Source: Gordonia liuliyuniae | Lineage (GTDB): Bacteria > Actinomycetota > Actinomycetes > Mycobacteriales > Mycobacteriaceae | Direction: 5' to 3' | Length of the DNA stretch: 64,000 bases | Assembly: GCF_021739025.1 (NCBI RefSeq) | Contig: NZ_JAKKOT010000001.1 | Location: 124,001 to 188,000, forward strand | Shown here: one piece after another, positions 3,447-21,629 of the stretch | Numbering within the stretch: the stretch's first letter is position 1 | Layout of the letters: each line of letters begins with the position of its first letter | The notes under the pieces: model-generated | The model's input: only the letters and a program-made list of their open reading frames with translations | Databases searched by the model: none | What the model was told of the DNA's origin: nothing | Program-made: the position numbers and the translations under genes

Positions 3447-4639
3447 TGCGTCGTCGTCTCTCTGGCGGCGACGCGTTCTCGATTCCAACAGGACTCAGCG
3501 GGCACGTGGGCAGGCTTCACTCGGGCCGCATGGACACGGGCAAGTTCGATCTCCGCGACGAGCAGGTCGGACCGCAGCCCGATCGGGTCGAGACCGAGAT
3601 TGACGAGATGGTCATTGCGGGCTGATAGATCGTTCACCTCCGCTTCGCGACGAGGGTTCTCCACATGACTCACCACGGCCCCGCTGAGCTCGGCGACAAT
3701 GGCCGCGAGGTCTGACACCCGGTGGGTCTCAGTCATCTGATTCATCACGCGGACGCGGTCCCCGACGTCATCGCCCGACTCGACGGCCAGCGCGATGCAC
3801 TGCACACTGTCGTTGATGTTGATGAACGCCCTGGTCTGCCCTCCCGACCCGTGCACCGTCAACGGGAGGCCGACGGCTGCTTCGACAAGGAATCGGTTCA
3901 GGACCGTGCCGTAGTCGCCGTCGTAATCGAAGCGGTTCACCAGTCGCGAATCCAGCGAGGTCTCTGCCGTTTGACTGCCCCACACGATCCCCTGGTGCAG
4001 ATCGGTGATCCGCAGGCCGTCGTTGACCGCGTAGAACTGGAACAGAAGCTGATCGAGCGACTTCGTCAGGTGGTACACACTGCCCGGCTGCGTCGGATAG
4101 AGGATGTCCCGGACGTGTGTGTCGCCGTCACGGTCCGGATAGCTGACCGTCAGATACCCTTCGGGTAGGTCCATCGGCACCGTGTCGTAGCCGTACACGC
4201 CCATCGTGCCGAGGTGGACGACGTGTGCGTTCACCCCTACCTCGGTGACCGCGGCCAGGAGATTATGAGTCGCGTTCACGTTATTGTCGACCGTGTACCT
4301 CCTGTGCGTCGGCGACTTCATCGAGTAGGGCGCGGCTCGCTGCTCGGCGAAGTGCACGATAGCGTCCGGTCTGATGTCACCGAGTACCTGTACGAGACGC
4401 TCGTAGTCAGTTGCTACGTCCAATGGCTCGAAGCCGATCGACGTGCCCGTCACTTCTCGCCACGCAACCAGCCGCTCGGGCAAGGAATTGACCGGCGTCA
4501 ACGAGTCCACGCCGAGTTCGCGGTCGATCTCACGACGCACCAGACTGTCGACGATCGTGATCGCGTGACCGCGCAAGGCGAGACGGAGGCTGCTCGGCCA
4601 CCCGCAGAACCCGTCTCCGCCGAGCACAATGATTCGCAT
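3443..4639 (-). CDS. sqdB: UDP-sulfoquinovose synthase (SqdB/SQD1-type extended SDR)
   Basis: Expected to convert UDP-glucose plus sulfite to UDP-sulfoquinovose with bound NAD, in the cytoplasm. The 398-residue protein opens with the GGDGFCGW nucleotide-binding motif typical of this subfamily. It keeps DSLVRREID, HFAEQRAAPYSM (~97), LGTMG (143-147), YHLTK (Y189, K193), DLHQGIVWG (~213), LNRF with GLPLTVHG (~247-264) and GGQTRAFININD (~266). These match plant SQD1 along the whole length, as I remember it. The position after TMG is Val148, where the plant enzyme has Glu as I recall. The start ATG follows a GAGGAG site; a longer reading to 4813 has no such support. It is first in an operon with BcsB-like and GT2 genes. 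No SqdX/SQD2 lipid glycosyltransferase is visible, so the product may enter a polysaccharide rather than sulfolipid. Confidence 0.9.
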   Translation of the reverse strand: MRIIVLGGDGFCGWPSSLRLALRGHAITIVDSLVRREIDRELGVDSLTPVNSLPERLVAWREVTGTSIGFEPLDVATDYERLVQVLGDIRPDAIVHFAEQRAAPYSMKSPTHRRYTVDNNVNATHNLLAAVTEVGVNAHVVHLGTMGVYGYDTVPMDLPEGYLTVSYPDRDGDTHVRDILYPTQPGSVYHLTKSLDQLLFQFYAVNDGLRITDLHQGIVWGSQTAETSLDSRLVNRFDYDGDYGTVLNRFLVEAAVGLPLTVHGSGGQTRAFININDSVQCIALAVESGDDVGDRVRVMNQMTETHRVSDLAAIVAELSGAVVSHVENPRREAEVNDLSARNDHLVNLGLDPIGLRSDLLVAEIELARVHAARVKPAHVPAESCWNRERVAARETTTQ

Positions 4640-4800
4640 TCGAGGCTCCTCACATCGCTTTTCACCGAAGTCTGCGCCGGATCGAGCGGTCGCCGCTTCG
4701 CCCGCCGCGGGTGATTTCTTCAGCCGGACGCGGCTGATTGCGGCACAACCGAAGCAATCGGCCGATAGACCGGCTGCGATCCACGAGACGAGGTACACCG

Positions 4801-5784
4801 ATGTCTGCCGCACTCAGCGTTCTCGTCCCCGACCACCAACGGCGATCCGTCGACGAACTCCGCGATCGACTGGACTTATCGTCCGGTGATCGCGCTTCAA
4901 AGAAGTCGGCGTACTGGATCATGCTGGTTCTCGCGGCCGTCATCGCCATCTCGGGAGTCGTGTCCGATTCGACGGCGACCGTGATCGGCGCGATGATCGT
5001 GGCCCCGCTGTCGATTCCCATCCTCGGGATCGGACTCGGCGTCACATCGCACGACTCGCGTCTCGTGCTACGCAGCGCCGGCCTGCTGACCGCGGGCGTC
5101 GTCGTGGTCGTCGCACTCGGCTACGTGTTCACTCTGCTACTGCCAGACGCGACGGACGTGCTCACGAACTCGCAGGTGACCGGTCGGACCTCACCCACGC
5201 TGATGGATCTGACCGCCGCCCTCGCGACCGGTGTCGTCGCCTCGCTGGCACTCACGCGTCGCGACGTCGGAGACGTGCTGCCCGGCGTCGCCGTCGCGAT
5301 CTCCCTGGTCCCCCCGCTCGGCGTAGTCGGTGTGTGCCTCGGCTCCGACGCACCGGGGCTCGCCGTCGGAGCGTTCATACTGTTCGTCTCTAACGTCGTC
5401 GCTCTCGTGCTCACTGCAATGATCGTGTTGACGCTTGCTGGCTACCATAGGAAGCCAAAGACCACAGGCAGGCACCAGTGGCGCGCGTACGCGATCGTGG
5501 CGTCGGCGCTCGTCGCCGTCGCCGTTCCCATGACGATCAACTCGATGACTTCGCTGTGGTCGGCGCAGATCGCAGACGCCGCTAGCGGCTGGATGGGCCA
5601 GGTGCCAGGGGCTCAGGTCGCCGACGTCACCCTGCATGGCAGCACTGCGACTGTCTTCGTGCTCGGCCCCGCCGAACTCCCTCCCCTCGGCGACCTGCAG
5701 GAGTCAGTCGACGCCCTGGTCCCGTGGCATCCTCGCGTCGTCCTCGTCCACGTCGTGGGCGACCGGACGACCAGCGCACCGTGA
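4801..5784 (+). CDS. DUF389 family integral membrane protein
   Basis: Membrane protein of the DUF389 (TIGR00341-like) family, whose function is unknown. The 327-residue protein has a cytoplasmic N-terminal segment (VLVPDHQRRSVDELRDRL). A membrane domain follows with the family's conserved beginning (SKKSAYWIMLVLAAVIAISG, then TATVIGAMIVAPLSIPILGI at ~65) and about seven hydrophobic segments up to residue ~255. A soluble C-terminal domain ends with VVLVHVVGD. The ATG at 4801 has GAGG eight bases upstream; a longer in-frame reading from 4738 begins at a weak TTG. It stands alone, divergent from sqdB across a 160-base gap. Confidence 0.85.
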   Translation: MSAALSVLVPDHQRRSVDELRDRLDLSSGDRASKKSAYWIMLVLAAVIAISGVVSDSTATVIGAMIVAPLSIPILGIGLGVTSHDSRLVLRSAGLLTAGVVVVVALGYVFTLLLPDATDVLTNSQVTGRTSPTLMDLTAALATGVVASLALTRRDVGDVLPGVAVAISLVPPLGVVGVCLGSDAPGLAVGAFILFVSNVVALVLTAMIVLTLAGYHRKPKTTGRHQWRAYAIVASALVAVAVPMTINSMTSLWSAQIADAASGWMGQVPGAQVADVTLHGSTATVFVLGPAELPPLGDLQESVDALVPWHPRVVLVHVVGDRTTSAP

Positions 5785-5809: not shown

Positions 5810-6298
5810 TCAGTCCGCGAAGACGTCTCGGAGGGTCGCCTCTTCGGCGTGCGACAGGTTGGTTGAGATGAGGGTGGGCGACTGACCCGCGAACTCCTCG
5901 TGGACGCGGTCGAGAGTTGCGTCGGAAGTGAGGACGAACAGCGCTGACGTTCCCGGCGTGACCTTGTCCCGAACCGATTCGATGAAGTCGTCATCGATGC
6001 CGACGTCGGTCAACGCTCCGGTGAGCGCTCCCATCGCAGCCCCCACTGCCGCACCGAGCAACGGCACCAAGAAGATCAGCCCGAACAACATGCCCCAGAA
6101 CGTTCCTCCCAGGGCCCCCGCAGCCGTCAGGTTGTCAGCCTGGCGGGTCTTCGGCTTCTTGGCAGCATCCGGCCACGAAACGGTCGCAGCGTCGTGCACC
6201 GTGATCAGTTCCTGCTTCTGCAGATCACGCAGGGTGGTGAGAGCCGTCTCTGCGCCGGTCGGCGTCGGAAATTTCCAAACAGTGAGTGTTCCGGCCAT
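5810..6298 (-). CDS. DUF1269 domain-containing membrane protein
   Basis: Small protein of 162 residues with a DUF1269 pattern. A soluble start (LTVWKFPTPTGAETALTTL) resembles a stress-adaptation module and is followed by a glycine-rich hydrophobic hairpin at ~75-105 (GTFWGMLFGLIFLVPLLGAA). A helical C-terminal region contains VGIDDDFIESVRDKVTPGTSALFVL. Such proteins are annotated only as membrane proteins of unknown function. The start ATG has AGAGAGGA seven bases upstream; an upstream in-frame start at 6376 was rejected because it lacks a site and encodes no family sequence. It is convergent with the DUF389 gene. Confidence 0.85.
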   Translation of the reverse strand: MAGTLTVWKFPTPTGAETALTTLRDLQKQELITVHDAATVSWPDAAKKPKTRQADNLTAAGALGGTFWGMLFGLIFLVPLLGAAVGAAMGALTGALTDVGIDDDFIESVRDKVTPGTSALFVLTSDATLDRVHEEFAGQSPTLISTNLSHAEEATLRDVFAD

Positions 6299-6431
6299 GG
6301 TGATTCCTCTCTGAAGCGGGTATCGGACCGTCCAGCCCGATACCTCGATCGTCCAGTCTGGTGGTCGACCGGGCACGACTTCTCACCCGCGACGGGCGAC
6401 CGCGCGCCTTGTGCGGACTACGATTCCTCGC

Positions 6432-7274
6432 ATGACTTCGGACCTGCCGGTCGGGACGATCCTCGTCCTGCGGCCCGGGACCAGTGGCGACCCGCTGAAG
6501 GTTCGGTTCGTCGATATGGACATCCGGTCGCGCGCCGCAATCCTGCAACTCGACCCGATCCTCGATCGTGAAGAGTTCAACGTGATGTTGCGGACCGACG
6601 CCGTGCAGATCGACCAGATCGATGAGCCTCTCGTCGACGTCCTGCGTCGCAGCGATGAGCCGCAGTTTCACCAGATCGCCATGCGGTTGGAGAACCTCGG
6701 CGTCACCGACTGGGATCTGTGGGCGTGGGGCCGGCCGGACGTCACCGATGTGATCGATCAGCGCGCAGACGCCACCGTCGTCGACCTCGGATCGTTCGGG
6801 ACGCCGGAAGAACAGCAGGCGACCGCACTGGCCGTCCTCGATCACCTGTGGGCACACCGCGATGAGCGCATCGGCCGTCTCGTGGTGATCGACGAAGCGC
6901 ACAACTTGTGTTCGCCGGCACCTACGACACCACTCGAACGCCTGCTCACCGAGCGGATCGTCCAGATCGCAGCGGAGGGTCGGAAGTACGGCATCTGGCT
7001 GCTGCTGTCGACGCAGCGTCCGTCCAAGGTTCATCCGAACGCGGTGTCGCAGTGCGACAATCTCGGATTGATGAAGATGAGTTCGGCGAGCGACCTCGCC
7101 GAACTCGGTGATGTGTTCGGCTACGCACCCGAGGCATTGCTGCAGCGGTCACCGACCTTCGGTCAGGGGCAGGTCCTGTTCGCGGGTGGTTTCACGACCG
7201 CACCCCAACTGGTCCAGATCGCGCCGCGGCTGACTCACGAGGGTGGTTCGGACGTAGCTGTCGCCCTGCGCTGA
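6432..7274 (+). CDS. HerA/DUF87-like ATPase, N-terminally truncated
   Basis: C-terminal half of a HerA/VirB4-type hexameric ATPase. Visible parts are an inter-domain segment (SRAAILQLDPILDREEFN at ~34-51), Walker B in LVVIDEAHN (150-158), and the arginine/sensor region LLLSTQRPSKVHP with SQCDNLGLMKMSS (191-218). Family members are roughly 500 residues and begin with a P-loop (GxxGxGKT); this one has 280 residues, no Walker A, and nothing matching in the upstream frames, where an opposite-strand gene lies. It is therefore probably a remnant, or a non-hydrolysing partner subunit. A TACGAT hexamer ends seven bases before the ATG, which would suit leaderless expression. A GTG at 6411 is an alternative start. 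Confidence 0.7.
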   Translation: MTSDLPVGTILVLRPGTSGDPLKVRFVDMDIRSRAAILQLDPILDREEFNVMLRTDAVQIDQIDEPLVDVLRRSDEPQFHQIAMRLENLGVTDWDLWAWGRPDVTDVIDQRADATVVDLGSFGTPEEQQATALAVLDHLWAHRDERIGRLVVIDEAHNLCSPAPTTPLERLLTERIVQIAAEGRKYGIWLLLSTQRPSKVHPNAVSQCDNLGLMKMSSASDLAELGDVFGYAPEALLQRSPTFGQGQVLFAGGFTTAPQLVQIAPRLTHEGGSDVAVALR

Positions 7275-7313: not shown

Positions 7314-7970
7314 TCAGGCGGTTACACCGCCGATGCCCTTGCCGATCAGTACTGCGCCGATCACCAAAATCAGCACGGCCATCACGCTCTGACTGTTCTC
7401 CTGCAACCACGTCTTCAGCGAGTCCAACGGTGCCCGGAGCCGATCCGCCGCGAACTGGAAGCCGATCACCGGGACCGCCACCGTCGCACTCGCAATCGCG
7501 GTGTACACGATGACGGCGACCACATCACCCGATCCGCTGAGCCCCGCGCCGCCGATGGTGATGCCCGCAGCTGCGCAGAGCATCAGGTTCTTCGGGTTGA
7601 TCGCGGCCAGGACGAAACCGATGCCGGCACCGGGAAGCACCGTCATCTCGTCGATCGCCGACATCCACTTCGGTGTTGTCGCCTCCGCTGATCGGGATCT
7701 CCACTGGTGCACTCCGAACGCGACGAGCACGACGCCGAGCGCGAGTTTGATCCAGCCGCGCCCCGCCGGACTGCCGTCCATAGCCTGCCCCAGGAATACG
7801 AACAGCGTCGTGGCCGCTGCCACGCCGATCGTCCATCCGCAGGCGAAGCCGAGACTCGCCGTTCGGGCGTGCACGCCCATCAGCATCAGGATCGCCGCGA
7901 TGATCGGGACCGGCGACACCGCGACGCCGACGGCGAGCGGCAGCAGGTCGCCGACCACCGCGCCGAGCAC
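7314..7970 (-). CDS. Sap-like (GAP/SfLAP family) membrane protein
   Basis: Polytopic membrane protein of 218 residues resembling the sulfolipid-1-addressing/GAP family (PF11139), proposed in mycobacteria to help move lipids across the membrane. The hallmark start is present (LLPLAVGVAVSPVPIIAAILML). About six membrane segments follow, with a conserved INPKN motif in FVLAAINPKNLMLC (~117-130). It lies four bases after a small membrane protein gene and last in a four-gene minus-strand run that starts with an alkylsulfatase and a SulP transporter. A second member of the family lies at 14852-15580, on the other side of the locus. A role in handling the lipid part of sulfated lipids is inferred from context only. 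Confidence 0.85.
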   Translation of the reverse strand: MLGAVVGDLLPLAVGVAVSPVPIIAAILMLMGVHARTASLGFACGWTIGVAAATTLFVFLGQAMDGSPAGRGWIKLALGVVLVAFGVHQWRSRSAEATTPKWMSAIDEMTVLPGAGIGFVLAAINPKNLMLCAAAGITIGGAGLSGSGDVVAVIVYTAIASATVAVPVIGFQFAADRLRAPLDSLKTWLQENSQSVMAVLILVIGAVLIGKGIGGVTA

Positions 7971-7974
7971 CGCG

Positions 7975-8388
7975 CTAGTCCGTCCGCCAGGTCGTAACGG
8001 CCCAGATCACAACCAGGTCGAGCGCGATCACCAGGATCGACCACCACGGGTAGTAGGGCAGCCAGAGGAAGTTCGCCACGATCGAGACTCCGGCGATGAC
8101 GATCGCCGACACCCGCGCCCAGGTGGCCCCGGACATCAACCCGATCGCGATGAGCACTCCGAGCGCGCCGACGATCAGGTGGATCCAGCCCCACGAGGTC
8201 GTGTCGAGGGCATACGTGTACTCCGGTCCGACGACGAACAGGTCGTCTTCCAGCACCGCGGACAATCCTTGAAAGAAGGCGAGCAGGCCTGCGACGAACA
8301 GCAGGATCGCGGCGGCGAACGTGGTGGTGCCCGACACGCCTTGCCGGACGGGATTGGCCTCTCGGTCATCTGTTGTGTGTGTCATCAT
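7975..8388 (-). CDS. DUF7144-like four-helix membrane protein
   Basis: Protein of 137 residues with four predicted membrane helices (approximately 20-42, 64-84, 88-108, 112-131). The middle pattern YALDTTSWGWIHLIVGALGV, with a tryptophan-rich loop FLWLPYYPWWSI, matches a small actinobacterial membrane family of unknown function (DUF7144 as I recall). GAGAGGAAAG lies just before two consecutive ATGs at 8388 and 8385. It sits between the SulP transporter (29-base gap) and the Sap-like gene (4-base gap), so it is almost certainly co-transcribed with them. It may be an accessory subunit; nothing in the sequence shows a catalytic role. Confidence 0.8.
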   Translation of the reverse strand: MMTHTTDDREANPVRQGVSGTTTFAAAILLFVAGLLAFFQGLSAVLEDDLFVVGPEYTYALDTTSWGWIHLIVGALGVLIAIGLMSGATWARVSAIVIAGVSIVANFLWLPYYPWWSILVIALDLVVIWAVTTWRTD

Positions 8389-8417
8389 CTTTCCTCTCAC
8401 TCGTTGGTTCTCGGTCG

Positions 8418-10097
8418 TCATTCTTCGGTGCGTAGTTCGCTGGCGGCTTCGCGGTTGCTGGCGAAGACACGGTCGGATTCCTTGAGGACGCCGAGTGTCC
8501 GCAACCGCGGTCCGACGGCTTGCCTGAGTCGGCTGAATCCGAGAGTGATGTCGTTCGCGGCGAGCCAGTCGCGCAACCGTTCGAGGGCTTCGGCGGCTGT
8601 CACGTCGACGTCGGTGACCGCCTCCAGGTCGAACACGAGGTGCTTCACCGGCTTCTCCGCTGCGGCGATGGAGGCCTTCGCCGACCGGACGACGGTGTCG
8701 GCGTTCGCGAAGAACAACGGTGCAGCGGGCCGCAGCACGATCAGACCCGGTGCGGTGATCGTCTTGTCGGCTGCGGTGAAGCGCTTGCCCGGAGTCGGGT
8801 CCGACTCGTCGGCGTGCAAGACGTCGACCGCCGGATTCGACGCTCGGCGAGCGATGTTGACCACTGCCAGCACGAACGCTACGACGATCCCGGCGATCGA
8901 TCCGACGAAGATCGTTGTGGCGAAACAGACGGCAGCGATCGAGAACTCGAACCGCTCGACGCGCCACAGCCGGGCGAACTTCCCGATGCCGAGCAGCGGG
9001 ACGACAGCGACGGCGACGATCGCACCGATCGCCGGCGACGGGATGCTGGTGAGCAGACCCGTTCCGAACAACAGCAACACCAGCGTGACAACCGCCAGGA
9101 CGAATGACGGGAGTTGTGTACGCGACGCCGCCTGGTCCATCGCCGCCGTCCTCGACGTGGACGAACCCACGGAGAAGCCGCCGGTGAAGCCTGCCGCGAC
9201 GTTGCCCACCCCGAAGGCCGCCAGATCGCGGTCGGCGGAGACTTCGTAGCCGTGCTTCTCCGCGTACGAACGGGATACCAACAGCCCCTCGACTGTCGTG
9301 ACCATCGCCAAGGCGATTGCGGACGGAACTAACGCGAGCCATTGAGCGACGCTGAGGGAGGGCCAGGTGAAGATCGGCGGACCGCCCGGCACCTCGCCGA
9401 GCACCGACACCCCGTGATCATCGAGATGGGCCGCGGCGACGATCACGGTCGCACCGACGAGGACGATCAACGCCCATGGGACGCGCGGCAGCCGCGTGCG
9501 CCACGCGAGGAGCACGATCAGCGACACCCCTGCAATCAGCACCGACCATCCGTTCGCGTCGGGCAGACCGGTGATCAACCCGCCGAGTTTGCCGACGAAC
9601 TCGTCGCCCGGCTCCAGATGGACGCCGGCCATTTTCGCGGTCTGGGACACCAGGATGTCCAAAGCGAGACCGCCGACGAAGCCGGTCAGGATGGGCTCAG
9701 ACAGGTAGTTCGCAAGGAAGCCCAGCCGAAAGACAGACATCAGCAGAAGGACAACACCGCAGATGACCGCCTGTGCCATCGCCATCGCCGCATAGTCGTC
9801 CCCGGACACCGCAAGACCACCGATCGACGAGGCGACGAGCGCCGCGGCCGCGGCGTCCGGCGACGCGACCAACTGTCTCGAGGACACGACCAGCGCGTAC
9901 AACACCGTTGGGATGATCAGCGCGTACAGGCCCGCGATCGGCGGCAGCCCGGCGATCTGGGCGTAGCCGATGTTGAGCGGAATCGAGATCGTGACGAGCG
10001 TGATCCCAGCCATCGTCTCCCGCGCGATGTTGCGCTTGGTCAGCCCGGGTATCACCCGATAGCCACGAAACCTCGCTGCGACGAGCCCGGTGGACAC
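8418..10097 (-). CDS. SulP family anion transporter with STAS domain
   Basis: Sulfate/bicarbonate-type SLC26 transporter in the cytoplasmic membrane. The membrane domain spans roughly residues 20-410, with the family's early motifs ISIPLNIGYAQIAGLPPIAGLY (~35-56), SSRQLVASPDAAAAALVAS, and VGNVAAGFTGGFSVGSSTSRTA near 290-310. A C-terminal STAS domain begins around residue 440 (APGLIVLRPAAPLFFANAD), with VFDLEAVTDVDVTAAEAL matching the regulatory switch helix. The GTG at 10097 is preceded by GGAGG; an upstream in-frame GTG at 10124 has a poorer site. It lies 52 bases behind the alkylsulfatase, so sulfate released by that enzyme is the obvious substrate or counter-ion. The direction of transport is not known. 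Confidence 0.92.
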   Translation of the reverse strand: MSTGLVAARFRGYRVIPGLTKRNIARETMAGITLVTISIPLNIGYAQIAGLPPIAGLYALIIPTVLYALVVSSRQLVASPDAAAAALVASSIGGLAVSGDDYAAMAMAQAVICGVVLLLMSVFRLGFLANYLSEPILTGFVGGLALDILVSQTAKMAGVHLEPGDEFVGKLGGLITGLPDANGWSVLIAGVSLIVLLAWRTRLPRVPWALIVLVGATVIVAAAHLDDHGVSVLGEVPGGPPIFTWPSLSVAQWLALVPSAIALAMVTTVEGLLVSRSYAEKHGYEVSADRDLAAFGVGNVAAGFTGGFSVGSSTSRTAAMDQAASRTQLPSFVLAVVTLVLLLFGTGLLTSIPSPAIGAIVAVAVVPLLGIGKFARLWRVERFEFSIAAVCFATTIFVGSIAGIVVAFVLAVVNIARRASNPAVDVLHADESDPTPGKRFTAADKTITAPGLIVLRPAAPLFFANADTVVRSAKASIAAAEKPVKHLVFDLEAVTDVDVTAAEALERLRDWLAANDITLGFSRLRQAVGPRLRTLGVLKESDRVFASNREAASELRTEE

Positions 10098-10149
10098 CTG
10101 GCGCTCACCTCCGTCCTCGCTCACCTTCGCTTTCGCTCAGCTGTCGCCG

Positions 10150-12027
10150 TTACGGCAGCACGATGTTGAACGCCGGATCGGGTTCGTCGACGACCTCAAT
10201 CAATCGCGCGAAGGCACCGCGATCACCGGTGAACTCCACGCCCGGAGACGTGTCGTCACCGCCGAGCAGTGCGAGCAGGCGCGGCTTGGTCGTGGCCACG
10301 GTCACGTCGGCGGGGCCGTCCTTGTCGAGCCTGCGACGGTGGATCAGGACACCGTTGCTGAGCGCGAGGCGGTGCGTCTGATCGAGGTCGGTGAATGTGA
10401 CATCGAGCGACAGTCGTTCGCCCCATGCCTTCGGACCGTTGAGCGAGATCGCGACCGAATCGAAGATCTGCGCTGGTGTCAGTTGAGCGAGGATCTCCGG
10501 CGCGTTGGGATTGGTCGGCGTCCCGAAGTTGGCTCCACGCAGTTCGGTGGCGCCGGACAGATAGAAGTTGCGCCACGTCCCGTTCTCGACCGTGTACGCC
10601 AGCTGGTCGAGGGTGTCCGCGTACAGCGCGCGCCCGTCCGAGTGGTCGGGGTCGACGAACACGACATGATCCAGGAGCGTCGCCGCCCACCGGTAGTCAC
10701 CAGACTCGTATGCGGCCCGCGCTACGTCGACGGTCTTGTCGATCCCACCGATCGCGTCGACGTAGCGAGCCGACAGAGCCTCCGGCGGGTGCGGCCACAG
10801 TCGGGCCGGGTTGCCGTCGAACCACCCGATATATCGCTGATATATCGCTTTGATGTTGTGACTGACCGAACCGTAGTAGCCGCGCGCGTGCCACGCGTTC
10901 TCCAAGGCGGGCGGAATCTGCATCGTCTCCGCGATCTCAGCGCCCTGGAGACCCTGATTGATCATCCTCAGCGTCTGATCGTGCAGATAGCCGTAGAGAT
11001 CGCGTTGGAGCGTCAACATCTCGACAATGCGATGGACTCCCCAAGTCGGCCAGTGGTGCGGCGAGAACATCACGTCCACGCGGTCGCCGAAGATGTCGAT
11101 CGCCTCGTTCAAATAGCCCGACCAGCCATGCGGATCACGGACCACTGCGCCGCGCAGGGTGAGGAGATTGTGCAGGGTGTGCGTGGCGTTCTCCGCGATG
11201 CACAGCGCGCGGAATCGCGGCAAGTAGACGTGCATCTCCGCGGGGGCCTCCGTCCCCGGGGCCATCTGGAACTCCATCTCGACACCGTCGATCGTCAGCG
11301 TCTCACCAGTGGTGTGAATGTCGATGGTCGGCACCACGATGCCCGCGGCACCGGTGGACGGGGCCTGACCGAGTCCTGCTCCGACGTGGCCGGATGGTCC
11401 GTGCGCAAGGGCCGCGCCGTACATGTATCCGGCGCGCCGCCCCATCGCGGTGCCCGCGTAGACGTTCTCAGCGATGGCGTGCTCGACGAACCCCTCTGGA
11501 GCGATCACCGCCACATCACCACGCGCGACCGCCTCTTGGTCGGTAACGCCGAGGACGCCGCCGAAGTGGTCGATGTGGCAGTGGGTGTGGACGATCGCTT
11601 TGACCGGCCGCTCCCCGCGATGAGCGCGGTAGAGGTCCATAGCTGCCAGTGCCGTCTCACGCGAGGTGAGCGTATCGATGATGACGACGCCCTCATCGCC
11701 TTCGACGATCGACAGGTTCGAGAGGTCAAGTCCGCGGACCTGATAGATGCCCGGAACCACTTCGAAGAGGCCCTGCATGCTCGTCAGTCGAGATTGACGC
11801 CAGAGACTCGGGTGGACCGTGTCAGCTGCGTCTTCTGAGTCCAAGAAGTCGAACACGTCGTTGTCCCACACCACCGTGCCGTCTTCGCTGCGGACTACGC
11901 CCGGTTCGAGCTTGCCGATGAATCCGCGACCGGCGTCGTCGAAGTCTCTGGTGTCGGTGAAGGGCAGCGATTCGCGTGCTCGACGGTGGGCTGCGACGAC
12001 GAACTCACTCGCATCTGGTTGGGACAT
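10150..12027 (-). CDS. Alkyl/aryl-sulfatase of the SdsA1 metallo-beta-lactamase type
   Basis: Hydrolyses primary alkyl sulfates such as dodecyl sulfate to alcohol and sulfate. The 625-residue length and layout fit SdsA1: an N-terminal metallo-beta-lactamase domain, a dimerisation segment and a C-terminal SCP2-like lipid-binding domain. The zinc motif is HTHCHIDHFGG (147-157); further metal or substrate elements are APGTEAPAEMHVYLPRF (256-272), AENATHTLHNL (278-288) and FSPHHWPTWG (321-330). The dimer region holds YQRYIGWFDGNPARLWPHPP (~396). The C-terminus (~500-625) includes LSLDVTFTDLDQTHRLAL. GAGGAGGAACC lies just before ATG 12027. No signal peptide is visible, so it is probably cytoplasmic and needs substrate import. 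The divergent LuxR-type gene is the likely regulator. Confidence 0.95.
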   Translation of the reverse strand: MSQPDASEFVVAAHRRARESLPFTDTRDFDDAGRGFIGKLEPGVVRSEDGTVVWDNDVFDFLDSEDAADTVHPSLWRQSRLTSMQGLFEVVPGIYQVRGLDLSNLSIVEGDEGVVIIDTLTSRETALAAMDLYRAHRGERPVKAIVHTHCHIDHFGGVLGVTDQEAVARGDVAVIAPEGFVEHAIAENVYAGTAMGRRAGYMYGAALAHGPSGHVGAGLGQAPSTGAAGIVVPTIDIHTTGETLTIDGVEMEFQMAPGTEAPAEMHVYLPRFRALCIAENATHTLHNLLTLRGAVVRDPHGWSGYLNEAIDIFGDRVDVMFSPHHWPTWGVHRIVEMLTLQRDLYGYLHDQTLRMINQGLQGAEIAETMQIPPALENAWHARGYYGSVSHNIKAIYQRYIGWFDGNPARLWPHPPEALSARYVDAIGGIDKTVDVARAAYESGDYRWAATLLDHVVFVDPDHSDGRALYADTLDQLAYTVENGTWRNFYLSGATELRGANFGTPTNPNAPEILAQLTPAQIFDSVAISLNGPKAWGERLSLDVTFTDLDQTHRLALSNGVLIHRRRLDKDGPADVTVATTKPRLLALLGGDDTSPGVEFTGDRGAFARLIEVVDEPDPAFNIVLP

Positions 12028-12217
12028 CGGTTCCTCCTCGATTTGGAAACGCACTCGAGTCTGCAGTGGTCCGAAGTGGACCCGTGGAACAAGTGTTTCG
12101 GGTTCTGCGGCTCCGGTGCGAACGACCTCATTCTTTGCGGGTGAGTCGAATTCGCGAGTCGTTTCAACCCGCGAACACGCCTCGCACCAAGGGTCGATCC
12201 GCGTAAGGTCTCCGCGT

Positions 12218-14782
12218 ATGACCGACTTTCGCGCGTGGTCTTCCTCCCTCCAATTCCAGGCGCCACTGCAACAGCCGGGGCACCTTCCGCGCTCTCGAGT
12301 CACCGACGGAATCGACGACCGGATCGACACGTCACATGCGGTTCTCGTCGTCGCGCCGAGCGGTTACGGCAAGACGTCGGCGGTCGCCGAATGGGCGGAG
12401 AAGCGGTGCGAGCGCGTCGCCTGGGTGACGTTGAGCAGATTCGACACCGATGTCGACCGAATCCAAGCCGTCGTCCTGCGTGCGTTGCTGTCGCTCGTCG
12501 ATCACTTGTCGTATGACGGGTTGCAGGCATTGCTTCGCGCCGACCCGTTCAGCGGAGTGTCGCCCACCGACTTCGATCACGTCGCCGAGGCCTTCGCCGA
12601 CCTGGTCGAGCCCGTCTATCTGGTAATCGATGACGCGCACCGCGCCAAGGACGCTCTGGGCACCGGTCTCATCGGCGCGCTGATCGACGGCTCGTTTCCG
12701 AACCTGCACGTCGTAGTCGTCGGCACCAGCTACACAGAACTGGCGCTCAGCCGATTCTCGCTGACGCATCCGCGTGCGGTGATCCGTGCGGTCGACCTCG
12801 CCTTCGACATCGGCGAGGTCAGCCGGTTCGTCCGCCGCAATGACACCGCCCTGTCGCCCGATTTCATACTCGAGGCCACGAGGGGATGGCCTATCGCGGT
12901 CCGGGTCCTCGCGATGACGGGAGTCCGCCCCGACCTCGACGGCGACCACGGCGTCTTCCATTCCTACGTCCGTGACCACGTGTTGCCGTCCCTGCCGCCC
13001 GACCTCGCCGAGTTCGCGTTGGTGACCTCCGCGTGCCGGAGCATCACGCCGGCGCTCGCCGATCAGCTGACCGGGCGCACCGACAGCGCCGATCTGTTGG
13101 ACCGGTGCGTCGCTGCCGCGCTGTTCATCGACCGATACACGTCGTCGAACGGCGACGTGTATCGATGGCACGCCCTGTTCGCCGGCCACTGCCGCGACAT
13201 CCTGGTCGAGTCCCGTCCGGGCACCGCAGCCAGCACGCTCCGCGCCGCCGCGTCGTTCTTCGAGGACAGCAGCCCGCTGCACGCGGCCGAGTACTGGCTG
13301 AAGGCGGGCGAGCCGACGAACGCCGTGCGGGTCGTCCTCAGCCGGTGGGTCAACGCGGTGGTCGGCCCCGACGCGACCGCCCTCGACCGTCTCTGCGTCG
13401 CACTTCCCAGCCCCTGGGACGACGATCCCCGTGTGCTCCTCGTTCGCGCCTGCGTACACCAGTCCACCGGCGAATCGACGTACGCCAAGATGCTCTACAC
13501 CCGTGCCGTGGCGCGCGGACAAGACTTCGTGACTCCCCCTGACAGCGGCGACGACTACCCCATCATCCTCGAGCAGGCACGACTGTTCCTGGTCGACGAC
13601 CGCACCGAACTCGGCGAAGCCTGCGACACGGCGCGGCGCCGATTCGAGACGGTCACGGAGTCGACCCGAGACCGAGTGCCCATGCTGTACCTACTCGGCT
13701 GGACCGAGATGCGTCTTCGCAGGGCTCCTGCACGCGCGATAGAGCTGCTCGACGCCACGGTGGCCGAAGCCCAGGCGATCGGTGCGACCGGTCTGGCCCA
13801 CCACGGCCGAAACCATCTGGCGTTCAGCTACGTGTGGGCCGGGCACCTGCACGATGCCCGGCGAGTCGTCGAGGCAGCGGGAGCCGAATCCGGCGGCGAC
13901 CCATGGGGTCAGTATGTGGGTGGCGGAGCCTCGTTCACGCGTGGATACCTCGCATACTGGCGAAACGATCTGCTGTCTGCCTCTGCCGAATTCTCGAGCT
14001 TGATCCGCTCGTCGGACTCGCCTCTGCTGTTCGGCGGTGCAGCACGGATGATGCTCGCGCTGACCGCCGCTGCACGCCGCGAACCCGGCGAGTGCCGGAT
14101 CGCTCTCGACGAACTGTCGAGCATGCCGGGGCAGATGGATCAGGGCGTCTCGTGGCCCGCATTCCGCCATACCGCACTCGCCGTCTTGAACGAAGCCGCA
14201 GGGAATACTGCCCGGGCCATGCGGGTGGTCACGAAGTACGAACACACCGACAGCACACCGTTCGTGAGCGTGGTGCTCGCCGGTATCGCAGCGCGGGCCC
14301 GGCAGCTGCGCACAGCGGCACAGATGATGCACCGTTTGCAGCCTCAGTACCAGCAGATCTCGTACGTTCGAGTCGCAACGCTGCTCGCCGACGCCCAAGT
14401 GGCCCGACACGACGGAGACCAGGAGCAAGCACACGACCTTCTCGAACGATCGCTCGATGCCGCTTCTGGAGAAGACATCCGCCGACTCTTCGCGGGTGAC
14501 GGTGTCGAGCTGCGACAGTTTCTCACCGGGCATCTCTCGTGGGGCACACGACACGAAGACTTCCTCGCGTCGTGCCTCGCTCCACCGCCCAGGAAGGGTG
14601 TCCTGCACACCCTCTCCGAGCGGGAACTCGACGTGTTCACCCAGCTGCGCACCACCCGCACGATGCAGGAGATCGCCGAGAGCCTCGGTGTCTCGATCAA
14701 CACCGTGAAGACACATCAGCGCGCCATCTACCGGAAGCTCGATGTCCGGTCGCGGCGCGAGGCTGTCCGTGTGACCGACTGA
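12218..14782 (+). CDS. MalT-type LuxR family transcriptional regulator
   Basis: Large signal-transduction ATPase (STAND-like) activator of 854 residues. A P-loop, APSGYGKTSA, lies at ~46-55, with Walker B-like VYLVIDDAHRAKD at ~135. A central helical repeat region (~350-760) resembles the TPR-like MalT sensor. A C-terminal LuxR HTH (~795-850) has LSERELDVFTQL, MQEIAESLGVS and NTVKTHQRAIYRKL. Such regulators bind ATP plus an inducer, oligomerise and activate nearby promoters. It is divergent from the alkylsulfatase across 190 bases and upstream of Sap-like and SulP genes, so it plausibly senses a sulfated compound and drives both arms. TAAGGT ends eight bases before the ATG, suggesting a nearly leaderless message. 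Confidence 0.88.
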   Translation: MTDFRAWSSSLQFQAPLQQPGHLPRSRVTDGIDDRIDTSHAVLVVAPSGYGKTSAVAEWAEKRCERVAWVTLSRFDTDVDRIQAVVLRALLSLVDHLSYDGLQALLRADPFSGVSPTDFDHVAEAFADLVEPVYLVIDDAHRAKDALGTGLIGALIDGSFPNLHVVVVGTSYTELALSRFSLTHPRAVIRAVDLAFDIGEVSRFVRRNDTALSPDFILEATRGWPIAVRVLAMTGVRPDLDGDHGVFHSYVRDHVLPSLPPDLAEFALVTSACRSITPALADQLTGRTDSADLLDRCVAAALFIDRYTSSNGDVYRWHALFAGHCRDILVESRPGTAASTLRAAASFFEDSSPLHAAEYWLKAGEPTNAVRVVLSRWVNAVVGPDATALDRLCVALPSPWDDDPRVLLVRACVHQSTGESTYAKMLYTRAVARGQDFVTPPDSGDDYPIILEQARLFLVDDRTELGEACDTARRRFETVTESTRDRVPMLYLLGWTEMRLRRAPARAIELLDATVAEAQAIGATGLAHHGRNHLAFSYVWAGHLHDARRVVEAAGAESGGDPWGQYVGGGASFTRGYLAYWRNDLLSASAEFSSLIRSSDSPLLFGGAARMMLALTAAARREPGECRIALDELSSMPGQMDQGVSWPAFRHTALAVLNEAAGNTARAMRVVTKYEHTDSTPFVSVVLAGIAARARQLRTAAQMMHRLQPQYQQISYVRVATLLADAQVARHDGDQEQAHDLLERSLDAASGEDIRRLFAGDGVELRQFLTGHLSWGTRHEDFLASCLAPPPRKGVLHTLSERELDVFTQLRTTRTMQEIAESLGVSINTVKTHQRAIYRKLDVRSRREAVRVTD

Positions 14783-14851
14783 ACCCACCTCGCCGTCGCC
14801 ATCATCCGCAGAGGGTGAGACGTGGATTCGCGGACACCTCGGTAGCCGACG

Positions 14852-15580
14852 ATGACTGTCATGCTCGACGTCCTTTGGCGCATGCTGCCGGTCACCCTGA
14901 GCGTAATGGCGAGCCCGGTGGCGATCCTCGCGGTGCTGGGCATGCTGCAGTCGTCTCACCCACTTCTGGTGAACGTCTGCTATCTCGGAGGGTGGGTGGT
15001 GGCCACCTCCGGCTCACTCGTCTTCTGGCTTGCTGTGCTCTCGTATTTCGGCATCTCCGAGGCCCACACCGGCTCCGCTCTCGCGACTGCGCTGCACGCG
15101 AGCATCTCCGTGCTGTGCTTCGCCGGCGCGGTGTGGTCGTATCGGCGGGCGCGGGCAACGTTGACGCGCCTCGCCGCGGCCCGCACCCTCGACGAGTTCG
15201 CGGCCGCCGCGCCGCAATTGCCCGGCCTCGTTAAGGACTCTGTGGGATACGGCGCGCGGCGATCATTCGTCGTCGGGCTCGGTGTCTTTCTCCTCAACCC
15301 GACGAATGTGTCGCTAGTGGCCGCGACCGCGATCGACCTTCTCAACGCGCACGTCTCGTCAGTGCAAGTCGTCGGACTGAGTATCGGCTTCGTCGTGGCC
15401 GTGTCCCTGCCGCTGGCCCTGCCAGTCATCGCGGTCACGGCCGGACGCCGGGCGCCGGACCGGCTCATCACGCGAGTGCGCGGATGGGTCCTTCGGAACA
15501 ACGGGTTCATCCGTGCATCCATGCTGCTCGTCGTCGGATTCCTACAATTGACGCGCGCAGTGACGGGCGGTCCGCCATGA
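14852..15580 (+). CDS. Sap-like (GAP/SfLAP family) membrane protein, second copy
   Basis: Polytopic membrane protein of 242 residues, homologous in pattern to the protein at 7314-7970. It has an N-terminal helix with MLPVTLSVMASPVAILAVLGML, a positively charged cytoplasmic loop at ~95-125, and NPTNVSLVAATAIDLL (~152) in place of the INPKN motif. Five or six helices are expected. Its TGA overlaps the ATG of the following SulP gene (ATGA), so the two are translationally coupled and probably act together. The family is linked in mycobacteria to sulfolipid export; here the substrate is inferred from context only. An in-frame ATG at 14861 is a possible alternative start. Confidence 0.82.
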   Translation: MTVMLDVLWRMLPVTLSVMASPVAILAVLGMLQSSHPLLVNVCYLGGWVVATSGSLVFWLAVLSYFGISEAHTGSALATALHASISVLCFAGAVWSYRRARATLTRLAAARTLDEFAAAAPQLPGLVKDSVGYGARRSFVVGLGVFLLNPTNVSLVAATAIDLLNAHVSSVQVVGLSIGFVVAVSLPLALPVIAVTAGRRAPDRLITRVRGWVLRNNGFIRASMLLVVGFLQLTRAVTGGPP

Positions 15581-17268
15581 AACGCTCGCAGGAAGCCCGC
15601 GCCGCGGTACAGACCTACCTCCGCAGGTTCGGCACCCGCCGAACGATCGGATCGGACGTCAAGGCAGGTGTCGTGCTCGGCGTCGAGAGCGTGCCAGACG
15701 GGTTGGCTGCAGGCGTCCTCGCGGGCGTCAACCCGCTGCTCGGACTCAACGCCTACCTGGTCGGCACGGTCACCGGGGCGTTGACAACCGGGTCAGTGTT
15801 CATGACCGTTCAGGCGACCGGCGCCATGTCGGTCATCATCAGCGACGTGCCAGCCGCGCAGGGTCCGAACGCGGCCTCCGTCATCGCCACTCTGACTGTG
15901 CTCGCGGGCCTCATCATGTTGGGGCTCGGGGTGGCTGGCCTAGGGAGTCTGGTCCGGTTCATCCCGTCGGCCGTGCTCTACGGGTTCGTCAACGGAGTCG
16001 CGATCAACATCATCCTCGGACAGCTCGCCAACTTCACCGGATTCGCGGGCACCGGAGAGAATCGCGTCAGCCGAGCGGTCGACACCGCGGCCCACATCGG
16101 CCATTTCAGCTGGCCAACTGTGGCAGTGGGTGCGTCGACGATAGCGCTGATCTTCGCACTGGAAGCCCTCGGAGTGGGCCCACTGGGAATGGTCGTCGCG
16201 GTGGTCGTCGGATCGGGTCTCGCGTTCATCTTCCCGCAGGACGCGGTCGTCACGCTCGGCGACTCAGTCGACATCGGCCGCAGTCTTCCATCATTCGTCG
16301 CGCCGTCGTTGTCGGAGACGCCCGCACTGCTTGTGCCCGCGTTGTCGTTGGCGCTCGTCGGGCTAGTGCAGGGTGCGGCCGTCTCCGGGTCGACCCCGAA
16401 CCCGGACGGCCACTACCCGAACGCATCGGCGGACTTCCGCGGGCAGGGCTTGGCGAACATCGCCTCAGGCGTGCTCCAAGGCATGCCCGTAGGCGGATCG
16501 ATGTCAGCGACGTCGTTGGCCCGGTCGGCGGGCGCACGGAGCGCGTTCGCGAGCATGGTCGCCGGCCTCGTCATGGTGGCCACGATCCTGGTGTGCGGTC
16601 CGCTCATCGAAAACGTGGCAATGCCCGCACTCGCGGGCCTCCTAATCCTCGTCGGCGTCCGTACGCTGAAGCCCCACCAGTTCCGGATGATCTGGCAAGC
16701 GGGGCGAGTACAGGTCGCCGTGTTCTCGGTGACCCTCGCATTGACCATGACGATCCCCCTCCAGTACGCGGTGCTCTCGGGAGTGGGATTGGCCGTGATC
16801 CTGCACGTCGTACAGCAGTCCAACCGGGTGAGGGTCGTCCAGTGGACGTTCGACACACCCGATTCTCGACCACGGGAGACCACGCCTCCGTCCGCCCTCG
16901 AGCCCGGCGACGTCGTCGTTCTCTCACCGTACGGAACGCTCTTCTTCGCTTCAGCACAAGCGTTCCGATCTCAACTGCCGACGCCAGTCGCCGATGCGCG
17001 CGGCGCAGTCGCCATCATCCGTCTTCGAGGGACGGACGAATTGGGGGTCACGTTCCTCACCATGCTCGGCGAGTACGCGATCGAGCTTCATCGTGCACAC
17101 GCCACTCTGATGTTGAGCGGAGTCGGCGGCGGCCTCGACGATCAACTCACCGCGACTGGGGTTCGCGAGCAGATCGGCGACAACAACGTCTTCTTGAGCC
17201 GCAGCCGACTCGGCGACTCGGTGTTCGACGCGTTGGGTCGGGCGCGGGAACGCCGCCAAGAGGGCTGA
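15577..17268 (+). CDS. SulP family anion transporter with STAS domain, second copy
   Basis: SLC26-type anion transporter of 563 residues, clearly different in sequence from the copy at 8418-10097. The membrane domain is at ~25-400, including VLGVESVPDGLAAGVLAGVN (~28-47), which replaces the usual P-x-x-x-A-Y motif, and VNGVAINIILGQLANFTGF. The segment GMPVGGSMSATSLARSAGARS (~307-327) is the conserved loop after helix 8. A STAS domain follows (~440-555: VVLSPYGTLFFASAQAF, AIIRLRGTDELGVTFL), with Asp in place of the usual phosphorylatable Ser. It is co-translated with the Sap-like gene. The altered motifs suggest a subfamily with another anion specificity than its partner; this is inference. 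Confidence 0.88.
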   Translation: MKRSQEARAAVQTYLRRFGTRRTIGSDVKAGVVLGVESVPDGLAAGVLAGVNPLLGLNAYLVGTVTGALTTGSVFMTVQATGAMSVIISDVPAAQGPNAASVIATLTVLAGLIMLGLGVAGLGSLVRFIPSAVLYGFVNGVAINIILGQLANFTGFAGTGENRVSRAVDTAAHIGHFSWPTVAVGASTIALIFALEALGVGPLGMVVAVVVGSGLAFIFPQDAVVTLGDSVDIGRSLPSFVAPSLSETPALLVPALSLALVGLVQGAAVSGSTPNPDGHYPNASADFRGQGLANIASGVLQGMPVGGSMSATSLARSAGARSAFASMVAGLVMVATILVCGPLIENVAMPALAGLLILVGVRTLKPHQFRMIWQAGRVQVAVFSVTLALTMTIPLQYAVLSGVGLAVILHVVQQSNRVRVVQWTFDTPDSRPRETTPPSALEPGDVVVLSPYGTLFFASAQAFRSQLPTPVADARGAVAIIRLRGTDELGVTFLTMLGEYAIELHRAHATLMLSGVGGGLDDQLTATGVREQIGDNNVFLSRSRLGDSVFDALGRARERRQEG

Positions 17269-17611: not shown

Positions 17612-18052
17612 TCACTCGGCCGCAGCCATTTCGGCGACGGCGTTCACCACATGTGCCGGAATACGCTCCACGGCGACCACCGAGGAGCCGTCCTCGTTCA
17701 GTGCGGCTGCGAGGTTTCTCGCCCAGACGAGCTCGAAGGCCACGATCGCCGCCGCCTGTCCCGCTGGCACATGCTCGAGCAGGTCGGTGACATCGTCATC
17801 ACCGATCAGCCCGGGCGCCGCGAGCGCGGTACCGGCGAGCGCGAACTCGGTGCGGTCCACCTCGTCCACCAGCACCGAACCACTCTCGGCTTTCGTGACG
17901 ACGACCGCATCGAGGAGCCGTATGACACCCGCATCAAGTTGCTCGGCCAACGCGTGGAACACGACTGTCGAGACCCGAGAGGCCCCCAACATGATGACGT
18001 TGATCTCGACCGGACCGAGTCCGCCCGCGCCCGCCAACGATTCGAAACCCAT
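17612..18052 (-). CDS. DUF6325-like protein (DUF1269-related)
   Basis: Protein of 146 residues, without membrane helices, resembling the small DUF6325 group often encoded beside SHOCT proteins. It opens with GPVEINVIMLGASRVSTVVFHALAEQLDAG, a ferredoxin-like start, then VIRLLDAVVVTKAESGSVLVDE. An acidic middle is followed by helical GQAAAIVAFELVWARNLAAAL and IPAHVVNAVAEMAA. The function is unknown; the pairing with a SHOCT protein suggests a membrane-associated or stress-related complex. A GGGGAGACG site supports the ATG at 18052; a 30-codon upstream extension encodes basic sequence unlike the family and was rejected. Confidence 0.75.
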   Translation of the reverse strand: MGFESLAGAGGLGPVEINVIMLGASRVSTVVFHALAEQLDAGVIRLLDAVVVTKAESGSVLVDEVDRTEFALAGTALAAPGLIGDDDVTDLLEHVPAGQAAAIVAFELVWARNLAAALNEDGSSVVAVERIPAHVVNAVAEMAAAE

Positions 18053-18191
18053 GACGTCTCCCCACTTTCGATGAACCTCCGGCCCGCCTCCCATTCGATG
18101 TTCGCACCGGGCGGCCAGTCGCAGTGGCCGCGTCACCCGCATCGGGCGAGACGCCGCAGGAGGTTCGGCAGCGCCGACTCATACTCGATTC

Positions 18192-19295
18192 ATGGCCGAC
18201 ACGCCCGTATCCGACCGCTCGTCTGCGCGGACGGTTCCACGCGGACTCGCGGTCCTTGTGGCGCTGGCTTCGATCACCGTCGTGACCGCCGGGATCAAGG
18301 TCACCGCGGGCATCGTCGGGCCGGTGTTCCTCGCGTTGATTCTGGTCATCGCGGTTCACCCGGCCGGCACGTATCTCCGCAGACACGGCTGGCCGCGTTG
18401 GTTGTCGGCGATCGTCGTCCTCGTCGCCCTATACGGAATACTCGTGGTGATCTTCGGATCGGTCGTCTTCTCGCTGGGCAGGCTCACGACCATCCTCCCC
18501 GACTATGCCGACAAGTTCGACGACCTCGTGGACGACGTCAAACAGTTCCTCCAAGATCACGGTGTCGCCACCGCGTCCGCGGACTCGATCCTCGGGAACA
18601 TCGACTCGCACACGCTCATCTCGGCTGCAGGCTCACTGCTGTCGTCTGCGGTCTCGCTGACGTCGACGCTCATCCTGATCATCTCGGTCGCGCTCTTCCT
18701 GGTCGTCGACTCACTCGGAGTGGACGACCGGACGGCCGTGCTCCGCCACGTGCGGCCGAACATCGCCGAAGCCATGATCGGTTTCACGAACGGAACACGC
18801 CGGTACCTCCTCGTCACCACACTGTTCGGGTTCATCGTCGCTGTCCTCGACGCCGGCGTCCTGTGGGCGATCGGGATCCCGCTGCCGTTGTTGTGGGGAC
18901 TGTTGTCGTTCATCACCAACTACATCCCGAACATCGGCTTCGTCCTCGGCGTCGTCCCGCCTGCTGTCCTCGGGCTCCTCGAAGGCGGCCCCGGGACCAT
19001 GCTCCTGGTCATCGTCGTCTACAGCGCGATCAACGTCGTCCTGCAGTCGTTCGTCCAGCCGAAGTTCGTCGGCGACGCCGTCGGCCTCTCTACGACCATC
19101 ACTTTCCTCTCACTCGTCGTGTGGGGTTGGATCCTCGGCCCGCTCGGCGCGATCCTCGCTGTCCCGCTGACGATCTTCGTCAAATCCCTTCTCGTGGACG
19201 TCGACCCACAGACCCGGTGGATGAACATCTTCATCGCCGATACGGTGTCCGCCACCCCGAGCGGCCCATCGAACGAAGGATCAGCCGATGCTTGA
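18192..19295 (+). CDS. AI-2E family transporter
   Basis: Integral membrane protein of 367 residues of the PerM/AI-2E exporter superfamily. Members act as exporters or ion antiporters; the name does not prove autoinducer-2 transport. Helices lie at ~20-60 and ~70-98, then a soluble amphipathic region (~98-140: LPDYADKFDDLVDDVKQFL), and a C-terminal bundle with the conserved PLPLLWGLLSFITNYIPNIG (~230-249) and VVLQSFVQPKFVGDAVGLST (~281-300). The last eight bases overlap the next gene, so the two are coupled. It is monocistronic upstream, divergent from the DUF6325-like gene across 139 bases. Confidence 0.92.
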   Translation: MADTPVSDRSSARTVPRGLAVLVALASITVVTAGIKVTAGIVGPVFLALILVIAVHPAGTYLRRHGWPRWLSAIVVLVALYGILVVIFGSVVFSLGRLTTILPDYADKFDDLVDDVKQFLQDHGVATASADSILGNIDSHTLISAAGSLLSSAVSLTSTLILIISVALFLVVDSLGVDDRTAVLRHVRPNIAEAMIGFTNGTRRYLLVTTLFGFIVAVLDAGVLWAIGIPLPLLWGLLSFITNYIPNIGFVLGVVPPAVLGLLEGGPGTMLLVIVVYSAINVVLQSFVQPKFVGDAVGLSTTITFLSLVVWGWILGPLGAILAVPLTIFVKSLLVDVDPQTRWMNIFIADTVSATPSGPSNEGSADA

Positions 19296-21604: not shown

Positions 21605-21629
21605 CCACCGCCACACGCCGAGGAGAACC

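Follow-up and report, generated by a model that had tools for sequence, protein, structure and literature searches.

Organisation of the locus

We analysed a 64,000-nucleotide stretch (the window; G000:C3:124001-188000) of a 4.04 Mb Gordonia genome, in which two divergent arms combine an alkylsulfatase with two SulP-type anion transporters and two Sap/GAP-family membrane proteins (PF11139), here called SfLAP1 and SfLAP2. A preliminary description of this DNA had reported seven genes, with one SulP and one Sap-like protein per arm; Pfam domains and coordinates bore out both points, and only the start of SulP2 had to be corrected. The minus-strand arm starts with a type III alkylsulfatase of metallo-beta-lactamase fold (10150..12027, 625 aa; Pfam Lactamase_B, Alkyl_sulf_dimr and Alkyl_sulf_C), followed by SulP1, an SLC26/SulP anion transporter (8418..10124; Sulfate_transp and STAS), a small DUF7144 membrane protein with four transmembrane-like segments by hydropathy (7975..8385, start taken from the 136-residue product) and SfLAP1, a helical membrane protein with an NPKN motif (7314..7970; 159.8 bits). 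This arm is compact, the successive gaps being 25, 32 and 4 nt. Beyond a divergent intergenic region (12028..12217), the plus-strand arm encodes a LuxR-family regulator with an N-terminal ATPase domain (12218..14782; AAA_16 and GerE), SfLAP2, a divergent family member with NPTN replacing NPKN (14852..15580; 61.2 bits), and SulP2, a further SulP/SLC26 transporter (15577..17268; Sulfate_transp and STAS). An ATG at 15577 is the more likely start of SulP2 than one at 15484, because it overlaps the SfLAP2 stop codon as ATGA.

Both PF11139 scores exceed the Pfam gathering cut-off of 35 bits, and they are the only two above-cutoff matches in the genome; a third match, below the cut-off, lies far from the locus (G000:C7:310658-311284). 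Likewise, two of the three SulP genes of the genome sit here, the third being distant and matching in two pieces (C7:444396-445418).

Recurrence in other genomes

In a set of 61 genomes (the window's own and 60 relatives), the alkylsulfatase query matched 30 places in 22 genomes (E 1e-80) and PF11139 matched 34 places in 24 (E 1e-8). Comparison of these lists by hand placed an SfLAP within 10 kb of nine of the 30 alkylsulfatase places, in eight genomes. SulP2-type matches (E 1e-60) were present in seven of the 61 genomes, and six of the seven, the window included, lay within 3.5 kb of an alkylsulfatase, again by hand. Twenty regions of relatives were examined, L006 and L007 having been taken for SulP1; in L017 the alkylsulfatase escaped the simple gene caller. 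The closest named locus, G. zhenghanii L025, has all seven genes at 71-88% identity and in mirror order. The mirror symmetry stressed in the preliminary description is therefore present in the window and in this relative, but it is not kept in a Gordonia metagenome-assembled genome (L005/L046), where SfLAP2-SulP2 lies downstream of SulP1. As the same genes persist there with rearranged arms, gene content is conserved while symmetry is not, and we dropped symmetry as a conserved design.

To widen the comparison, we used a nine-protein SfLAP1 alignment as query and took the best 80 of 438 SfLAP1-type loci. Most of the nine proteins already adjoined an alkylsulfatase, so that the selection cannot count as blind; Rhodococcus is strongly represented, some genomes contribute two loci, and 22 genus-level names occur, of which one is a family name. 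Neighbours were counted by tblastn (40% query coverage, E 1e-8) around the best SfLAP1 match. A SulP gene lay within 3 kb at 32 loci and within 10 kb at 38. At the same two distances the counts were 12 and 21 for the alkylsulfatase, 4 and 7 for a type I arylsulfatase, 16 and 16 for the formylglycine-generating enzyme (FGE), and 28 and 36 for any of these three; they were 14 and 30 for DUF7144, 11 and 17 for AI-2E, 8 and 16 for DUF6325, 6 and 9 for DUF389, and 3 and 15 for LuxR. The controls, 38 window genes from beyond 20.6 kb run at the same thresholds, reached at most 1 locus at 3 kb and 4 at 10 kb (means 0.03 and 0.45). An ABC ATPase query, from a large family, was near SfLAP1 at one locus within 3 kb and at 19 within 10 kb, so that less background enters the counts at 3 kb.

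Several loci, in which some members were checked by Pfam, illustrate these associations; the gene sets of L092, L052, L082, L072 and L077 are compact, and each runs along a single strand. Agromyces bauzanensis L092 carries SulP1-SfLAP1-alkylsulfatase-AI2E-SulP2, all on the plus strand; upstream of these lie a second SfLAP1 and DUF6325. Rhodococcus sp. HNM0569 L052 has SulP2-alkylsulfatase-SulP1-SfLAP1, Geodermatophilus L082 alkylsulfatase-SfLAP1-SulP, and Actinomadura L072 alkylsulfatase-SfLAP1. In Microbacterium the order is SulP1 (split between frames)-SfLAP1-SfLAP2-arylsulfatase at L077 and alkylsulfatase-SulP1-SfLAP1-FGE at L084. Pfam confirmed one FGE and one arylsulfatase among the neighbours, and all 14 FGE proteins of a blastp cluster carry a two-cysteine motif, which we take to be of the kind typical of FGE. 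Since the alkylsulfatase and the type I arylsulfatase/FGE both adjoin SfLAP1 and SulP, two unrelated sulfatase systems have the same transporters in common, and the product common to both is sulfate. The sulfatase-SulP-Sap linkage, for which the preliminary description had suggested a gene-neighbourhood search, thus recurs across the 80 loci and extends to a second sulfatase system. Six Rhodococcus loci (L047, L055, L056, L059, L073 and L081) combine SfLAP1 and FGE with a membrane-like protein that we labelled YihY by eye, although Pfam gave no match for one member; at L081 the gene next to FGE looks multicopper-oxidase-like by eye.

The linkage is weaker in 148 genomes sampled evenly across the class, which were not selected via sulfatase-adjacent queries. 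Alkyl_sulf_dimr was found here at 39 places and SfLAP at 98, and most of the SfLAP places have no listed SulP and no alkylsulfatase nearby; among the 80 loci, too, 28 have neither a SulP nor a sulfatase/FGE gene within 10 kb. Even so, a SulP lies within 3 kb at no fewer than 10 of the 98 SfLAP places by hand count (among the matches listed, G000 twice, G067, G087, G101, G165, G166, G172, G176 and G192), against a rough chance expectation of 0.1, calculated from 180 SulP matches in the 148 genomes (summed by hand) and an assumed ~5.5 Mb per genome. A quick tree built from 81 SfLAP1 rows requires, at 3 kb, a minimum of 15 state changes for any sulfatase gene, 8 for the alkylsulfatase and 20 for SulP, counts that have no shuffled control.

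Features of the proteins, the intergenic region and the flanking genes

The alkylsulfatase, which has all three domains of a type III enzyme, can be aligned along most of its sequence to PSdsA (4nur), to the sec-alkylsulfatases 4av7 and 2yhe (presumably Pisa1) and to SdsA1 (2cfu). It carries the metallo-beta-lactamase motif THCHIDH, and its stretch THTLHN matches PSdsA where 4av7 has PPAMHN. The protein has no transmembrane-like segment, and the hydropathy maximum of its first 60 residues is low (0.23), which argues for a probably cytosolic enzyme. Type I sulfatases (PF00884) gave zero matches in this genome. At Gordonia lacunae L044 (6062-9799), two tandem alkylsulfatase genes adjoin SfLAP1 and SulP.

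Residues of the SulP proteins were read from an alignment with AtSULTR4;1 (7lhv), each row being typed by its better match. At the positions of E347 and R393, SulP1 carries Glu and Arg and SulP2 carries Gln and Ala, so that the two proteins do differ in motif, as the preliminary description had claimed. Among SulP1-type rows (one of which repeats a genome, L005 = L046), Glu occupies the E347 position in 41 of 43, one of the two exceptions being L007, where the gene is split between frames; the R393 position is Lys or Arg in 35, Gln in seven and not covered in one. Gln stands at the E347 position in all 16 SulP2-type rows, which include two repeats of a genome (L005 = L046 and L013 = L026); at the R393 position the nine closest have Ala or Gly and the others Arg (six) or Gln (one). 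SulP1 thus has, and SulP2 lacks, the Glu that couples protons in AtSULTR4;1. Both have the Sulfate_transp and STAS domains of the SulP/SLC26 family, and both fall under the narrower TIGR00815 sulP cut-off (356.3 and 209.9 versus 380.45 bits). SulP1 genes are split between two frames in L007 (G035:C1:3957881-3959562) and L077 (8489-9959), through decay or sequencing error.

The NPKN motif is present in 81 of 82 SfLAP1 matches and in none of eight SfLAP2-type matches, among which the partial match of L046 may not reach the motif. Because SfLAP2-type matches recur directly beside SfLAP1 in Rhodococcus, Williamsia and Microbacterium, the two proteins could possibly form a paired transporter. GAP proteins have been placed in the LysE superfamily, with transport directed from inside to outside (PMC4608589). 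A plasmid search with SfLAP1 returned five records, all below 60% identity, four of them annotated as GAP family protein at the match. In two genomes of the class sample, an SfLAP gene stands between two SulP genes, of which the left one has the opposite orientation (G172:C214:21700-24689 and G192:C1:4816982-4820188).

The regulator had been called MalT-type; its architecture is indeed MalT-like, but its score of 133.9 bits falls far short of the MalT equivalog cut-off of 537 (NCBIfam PRK04841). Within the divergent region, a 19-bp element at 12127-12145 (CTCACCCGCAAAGAATGAG on the minus strand) is identical in G. zhenghanii and sits in a 22-bp identical block, the longest within the gap itself. 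The element would fit a single site of control over the two arms. An exact copy of its 16-bp core occurs in two of 104 loci, the window's own (L001) and L025. As the element occurs once in the window and, with up to 3 mismatches allowed, once in the genome, an operator common to other sites was set aside. A promoter scan was at shuffle level (1 versus a mean of 1.0), and a terminator scan was near it (6 versus 3.5, standard deviation 1.8).

The locus is flanked by genes that recur in relatives: those for a DUF389 membrane protein (4738..5784, plus strand), a DUF1269 protein (5810..6376, minus), a DUF6325 protein (17612..18142, minus) and an AI-2E family transporter (18192..19295, plus), and a pair at 1590-4813 encoding an NAD-dependent epimerase and a BcsB-like protein (a weak match, below cut-off). 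A DUF389 homologue directly adjoins the alkylsulfatase in six of the 20 examined regions. In G036 (L009), epimerase/BcsB-like homologues stand beside a family 2 glycosyltransferase, DUF389 and the alkylsulfatase, and L013 has the same layout, which suggests that an exopolysaccharide gene set is linked to the sulfatase. A protein encoded at 6411-7274 has no Pfam match and resembles by eye the C-terminal region of HerA-type ATPases (VVIDEAHN). Downstream, at 20687-22451, lie genes for a luciferase-like monooxygenase and a rhodanese-domain protein, possibly related to sulfur.

A proposed desulfation module, its alternatives and known systems

What we observe is the gene content and compact order of the locus, its recurrence, the two sulfatase systems that stand with the same transporters, and the residue split of the SulP and SfLAP types. 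For these we tentatively propose, at rather less than an even chance, a module for cytosolic desulfation of organic sulfate esters and handling of the anions involved; its substrates, transport directions, cytosolic location and regulation we infer. SulP1, of the H+-coupled type, would import an anion, possibly a sulfate ester or sulfate itself, and the alkylsulfatase would hydrolyse the ester in the cytosol. Sulfate or another anion might then be released or exchanged by SulP2, a type that lacks the proton-coupling Glu and in this protein also the anion-site Arg, by the two LysE-superfamily SfLAP proteins, or by both, and the divergently transcribed LuxR-ATPase regulator would control both arms. 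Type I sulfatases of the cysteine type are said to reside typically in the cytosol (PMC3920027), which fits their adjoining the same transporters. A more specific suggestion, which we regard as rather unlikely, is that the SfLAP1 clade consists of small-anion (sulfate or sulfate-ester) transporters that act with SulP and sulfatases in paired NPKN and non-NPKN forms, the family name hiding a function with inorganic or small organic anions.

Several observations weigh against the desulfation module. To our knowledge, the linked DUF389, DUF7144, AI-2E, DUF6325 and DUF1269 families have no known role in sulfur metabolism. FGE and arylsulfatase became queries after they had been seen to recur, and a sign test of SulP versus sulfatase on independent tree pairs gave a median p of 0.06, which is not significant and suggestive only. 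A model of SfLAP1 (mean pLDDT 86.3) compared with the PDB (Foldseek, VIA-align) found no match above unrelated helical transporters, a result that is silent on fold novelty. SulP2 may not carry sulfate at all, or may bind it otherwise: it has a natural Ala at the R393 position, and changing Arg393 of AtSULTR4;1 to Ala abolishes nearly all transport (PMC8298490), which makes SulP2 doubtful as a plain sulfate carrier. In the class sample, an alkylsulfatase has an SfLAP within ~12 kb at four of its 39 places (G000, G091, G116 and G166, by hand). Finally, the preliminary description had stated that its reading would suffer if Sap-SulP pairs were common without sulfur genes; this holds in part, since a sulfatase or FGE gene is missing from the 10 kb span at 16 of the 38 loci where a SulP lies that close to SfLAP1. 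With SulP-SfLAP loci lacking a sulfatase this common, and given the class-sample counts, SulP with SfLAP is the broader association, to which a sulfatase may or may not be added.

These counts also speak for a different account, quite possible though not probable, in which the genes form a modular actinobacterial envelope or anion-stress island where SulP-SfLAP moves another anion or a lipid and the sulfatase is one among several passengers that can replace each other. Its main support comes from the recurrent flanking DUF389, DUF1269, DUF6325, AI-2E, epimerase and BcsB-like genes; the 10 kb counts of DUF7144, AI-2E, DUF6325, LuxR and DUF389 also agree with it. Among the at least 10 SulP-near SfLAP places of the class sample, moreover, an alkylsulfatase lies within ~12 kb only in G166 and the window (type I sulfatases were not looked for). 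Such a passenger role is harder to reconcile with the recurrence of two unrelated sulfatase systems beside SfLAP1, at 36 of the 80 loci within 10 kb, and with the 15 or more state changes of sulfatase genes on the SfLAP1 tree. Alternatively, but in our judgement unlikely, the locus could serve sulfur scavenging under sulfate starvation, the alkylsulfatase freeing sulfate for uptake by SulP1 while SulP2 and the SfLAPs do something else. Sulfatases abound in Rhodococcus IGTS8 when it is grown with dibenzothiophene in place of sulfate (PMC8557817), and an alkyl sulfatase of Gordonia NB4-1Y, a putative counterpart, is more strongly expressed when 6:2 FTSA supplies the sulfur, a response that the authors tentatively connect with sulfate starvation (PMC7661421). 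Scavenging leaves unexplained, however, why two SulP types and two LysE-superfamily proteins are kept with the sulfatase, and the neighbours scanned with Pfam (19 of the called genes in window 7-35003, besides the locus) yielded no recognisable gene for assimilation or for ABC-type sulfate uptake.

That sulfated lipids are imported, cleaved and exported, with the Sap-like proteins moving sulfolipids, was the original proposal for this locus; we now consider it very unlikely, and the export step found no support. PF11139 is named after the sulfolipid-1-addressing protein, but the label applies at family level, and the one PF13469 sulfotransferase match in the genome is on another contig. The genes of the sulfolipid-1 locus include pks2, papA and mmpL8; neither these nor any other sulfolipid-assembly gene could be recognised by Pfam among the locus genes and scanned neighbours. 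The SfLAP1 clade, moreover, also adjoins type I sulfatases and FGE, and the transport mechanism of GAP proteins is described as largely unknown (PMC4608589). Least probable of all, to a degree that we give it hardly any weight, is catabolism of anionic surfactants resembling the Psychrobacter SLF module. In its favour, the alkylsulfatase is full-length and PSdsA-like, but that module has alcohol/aldehyde dehydrogenase and CoA ligase genes beside its sulfatase (PMC10779009), and none were recognised among the locus genes and scanned neighbours, where the only short-chain dehydrogenase match is at 24531-25400.

If the desulfation module is correct, the Sap/GAP family, poorly understood and thought to move cell-envelope lipids, would gain a testable role in sulfate chemistry, and the locus would describe how actinobacteria that desulfate intracellularly may cope with the sulfate set free. 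Having both SulP types in one locus, with different residues at the proton-coupling position, would provide a natural test pair for importer versus exchanger. All parts of the locus come from known families; the combination of sulfatase, SulP and SfLAP was not met in the literature searched, where none of the titles listed, from open-licence papers, concerned such a cluster.

Compared with AtSULTR4;1 and other SulP/SLC26 proteins, SulP1 keeps both key residue positions, unlike SulP2, which has neither residue. The alkylsulfatase resembles PSdsA, SdsA1 and the sec-alkylsulfatases in near whole-length homology and in the metallo-beta-lactamase motif, but differs in having no hydrophobic N-terminus and in its transporter gene context. 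SfLAP1 and SfLAP2, both above the Pfam cut-off, are alike to the GAP/Sap proteins (TC 2.A.116), whose known members stand in a glycolipid or sulfolipid gene context, unlike the sulfatase and SulP context found here. Of the clusters described, the SLF module of Psychrobacter plasmid pP62BP1 (slfRCHSL) comes nearest; it likewise combines, in compact form, an alkylsulfatase with a regulator of its own (PMC10779009). In the main text of that paper the words permease and transporter do not occur; where the SLF module has dehydrogenases, a CoA ligase and an AraC/XylS regulator, the Gordonia locus has SulP and SfLAP transporters and a LuxR-ATPase regulator.

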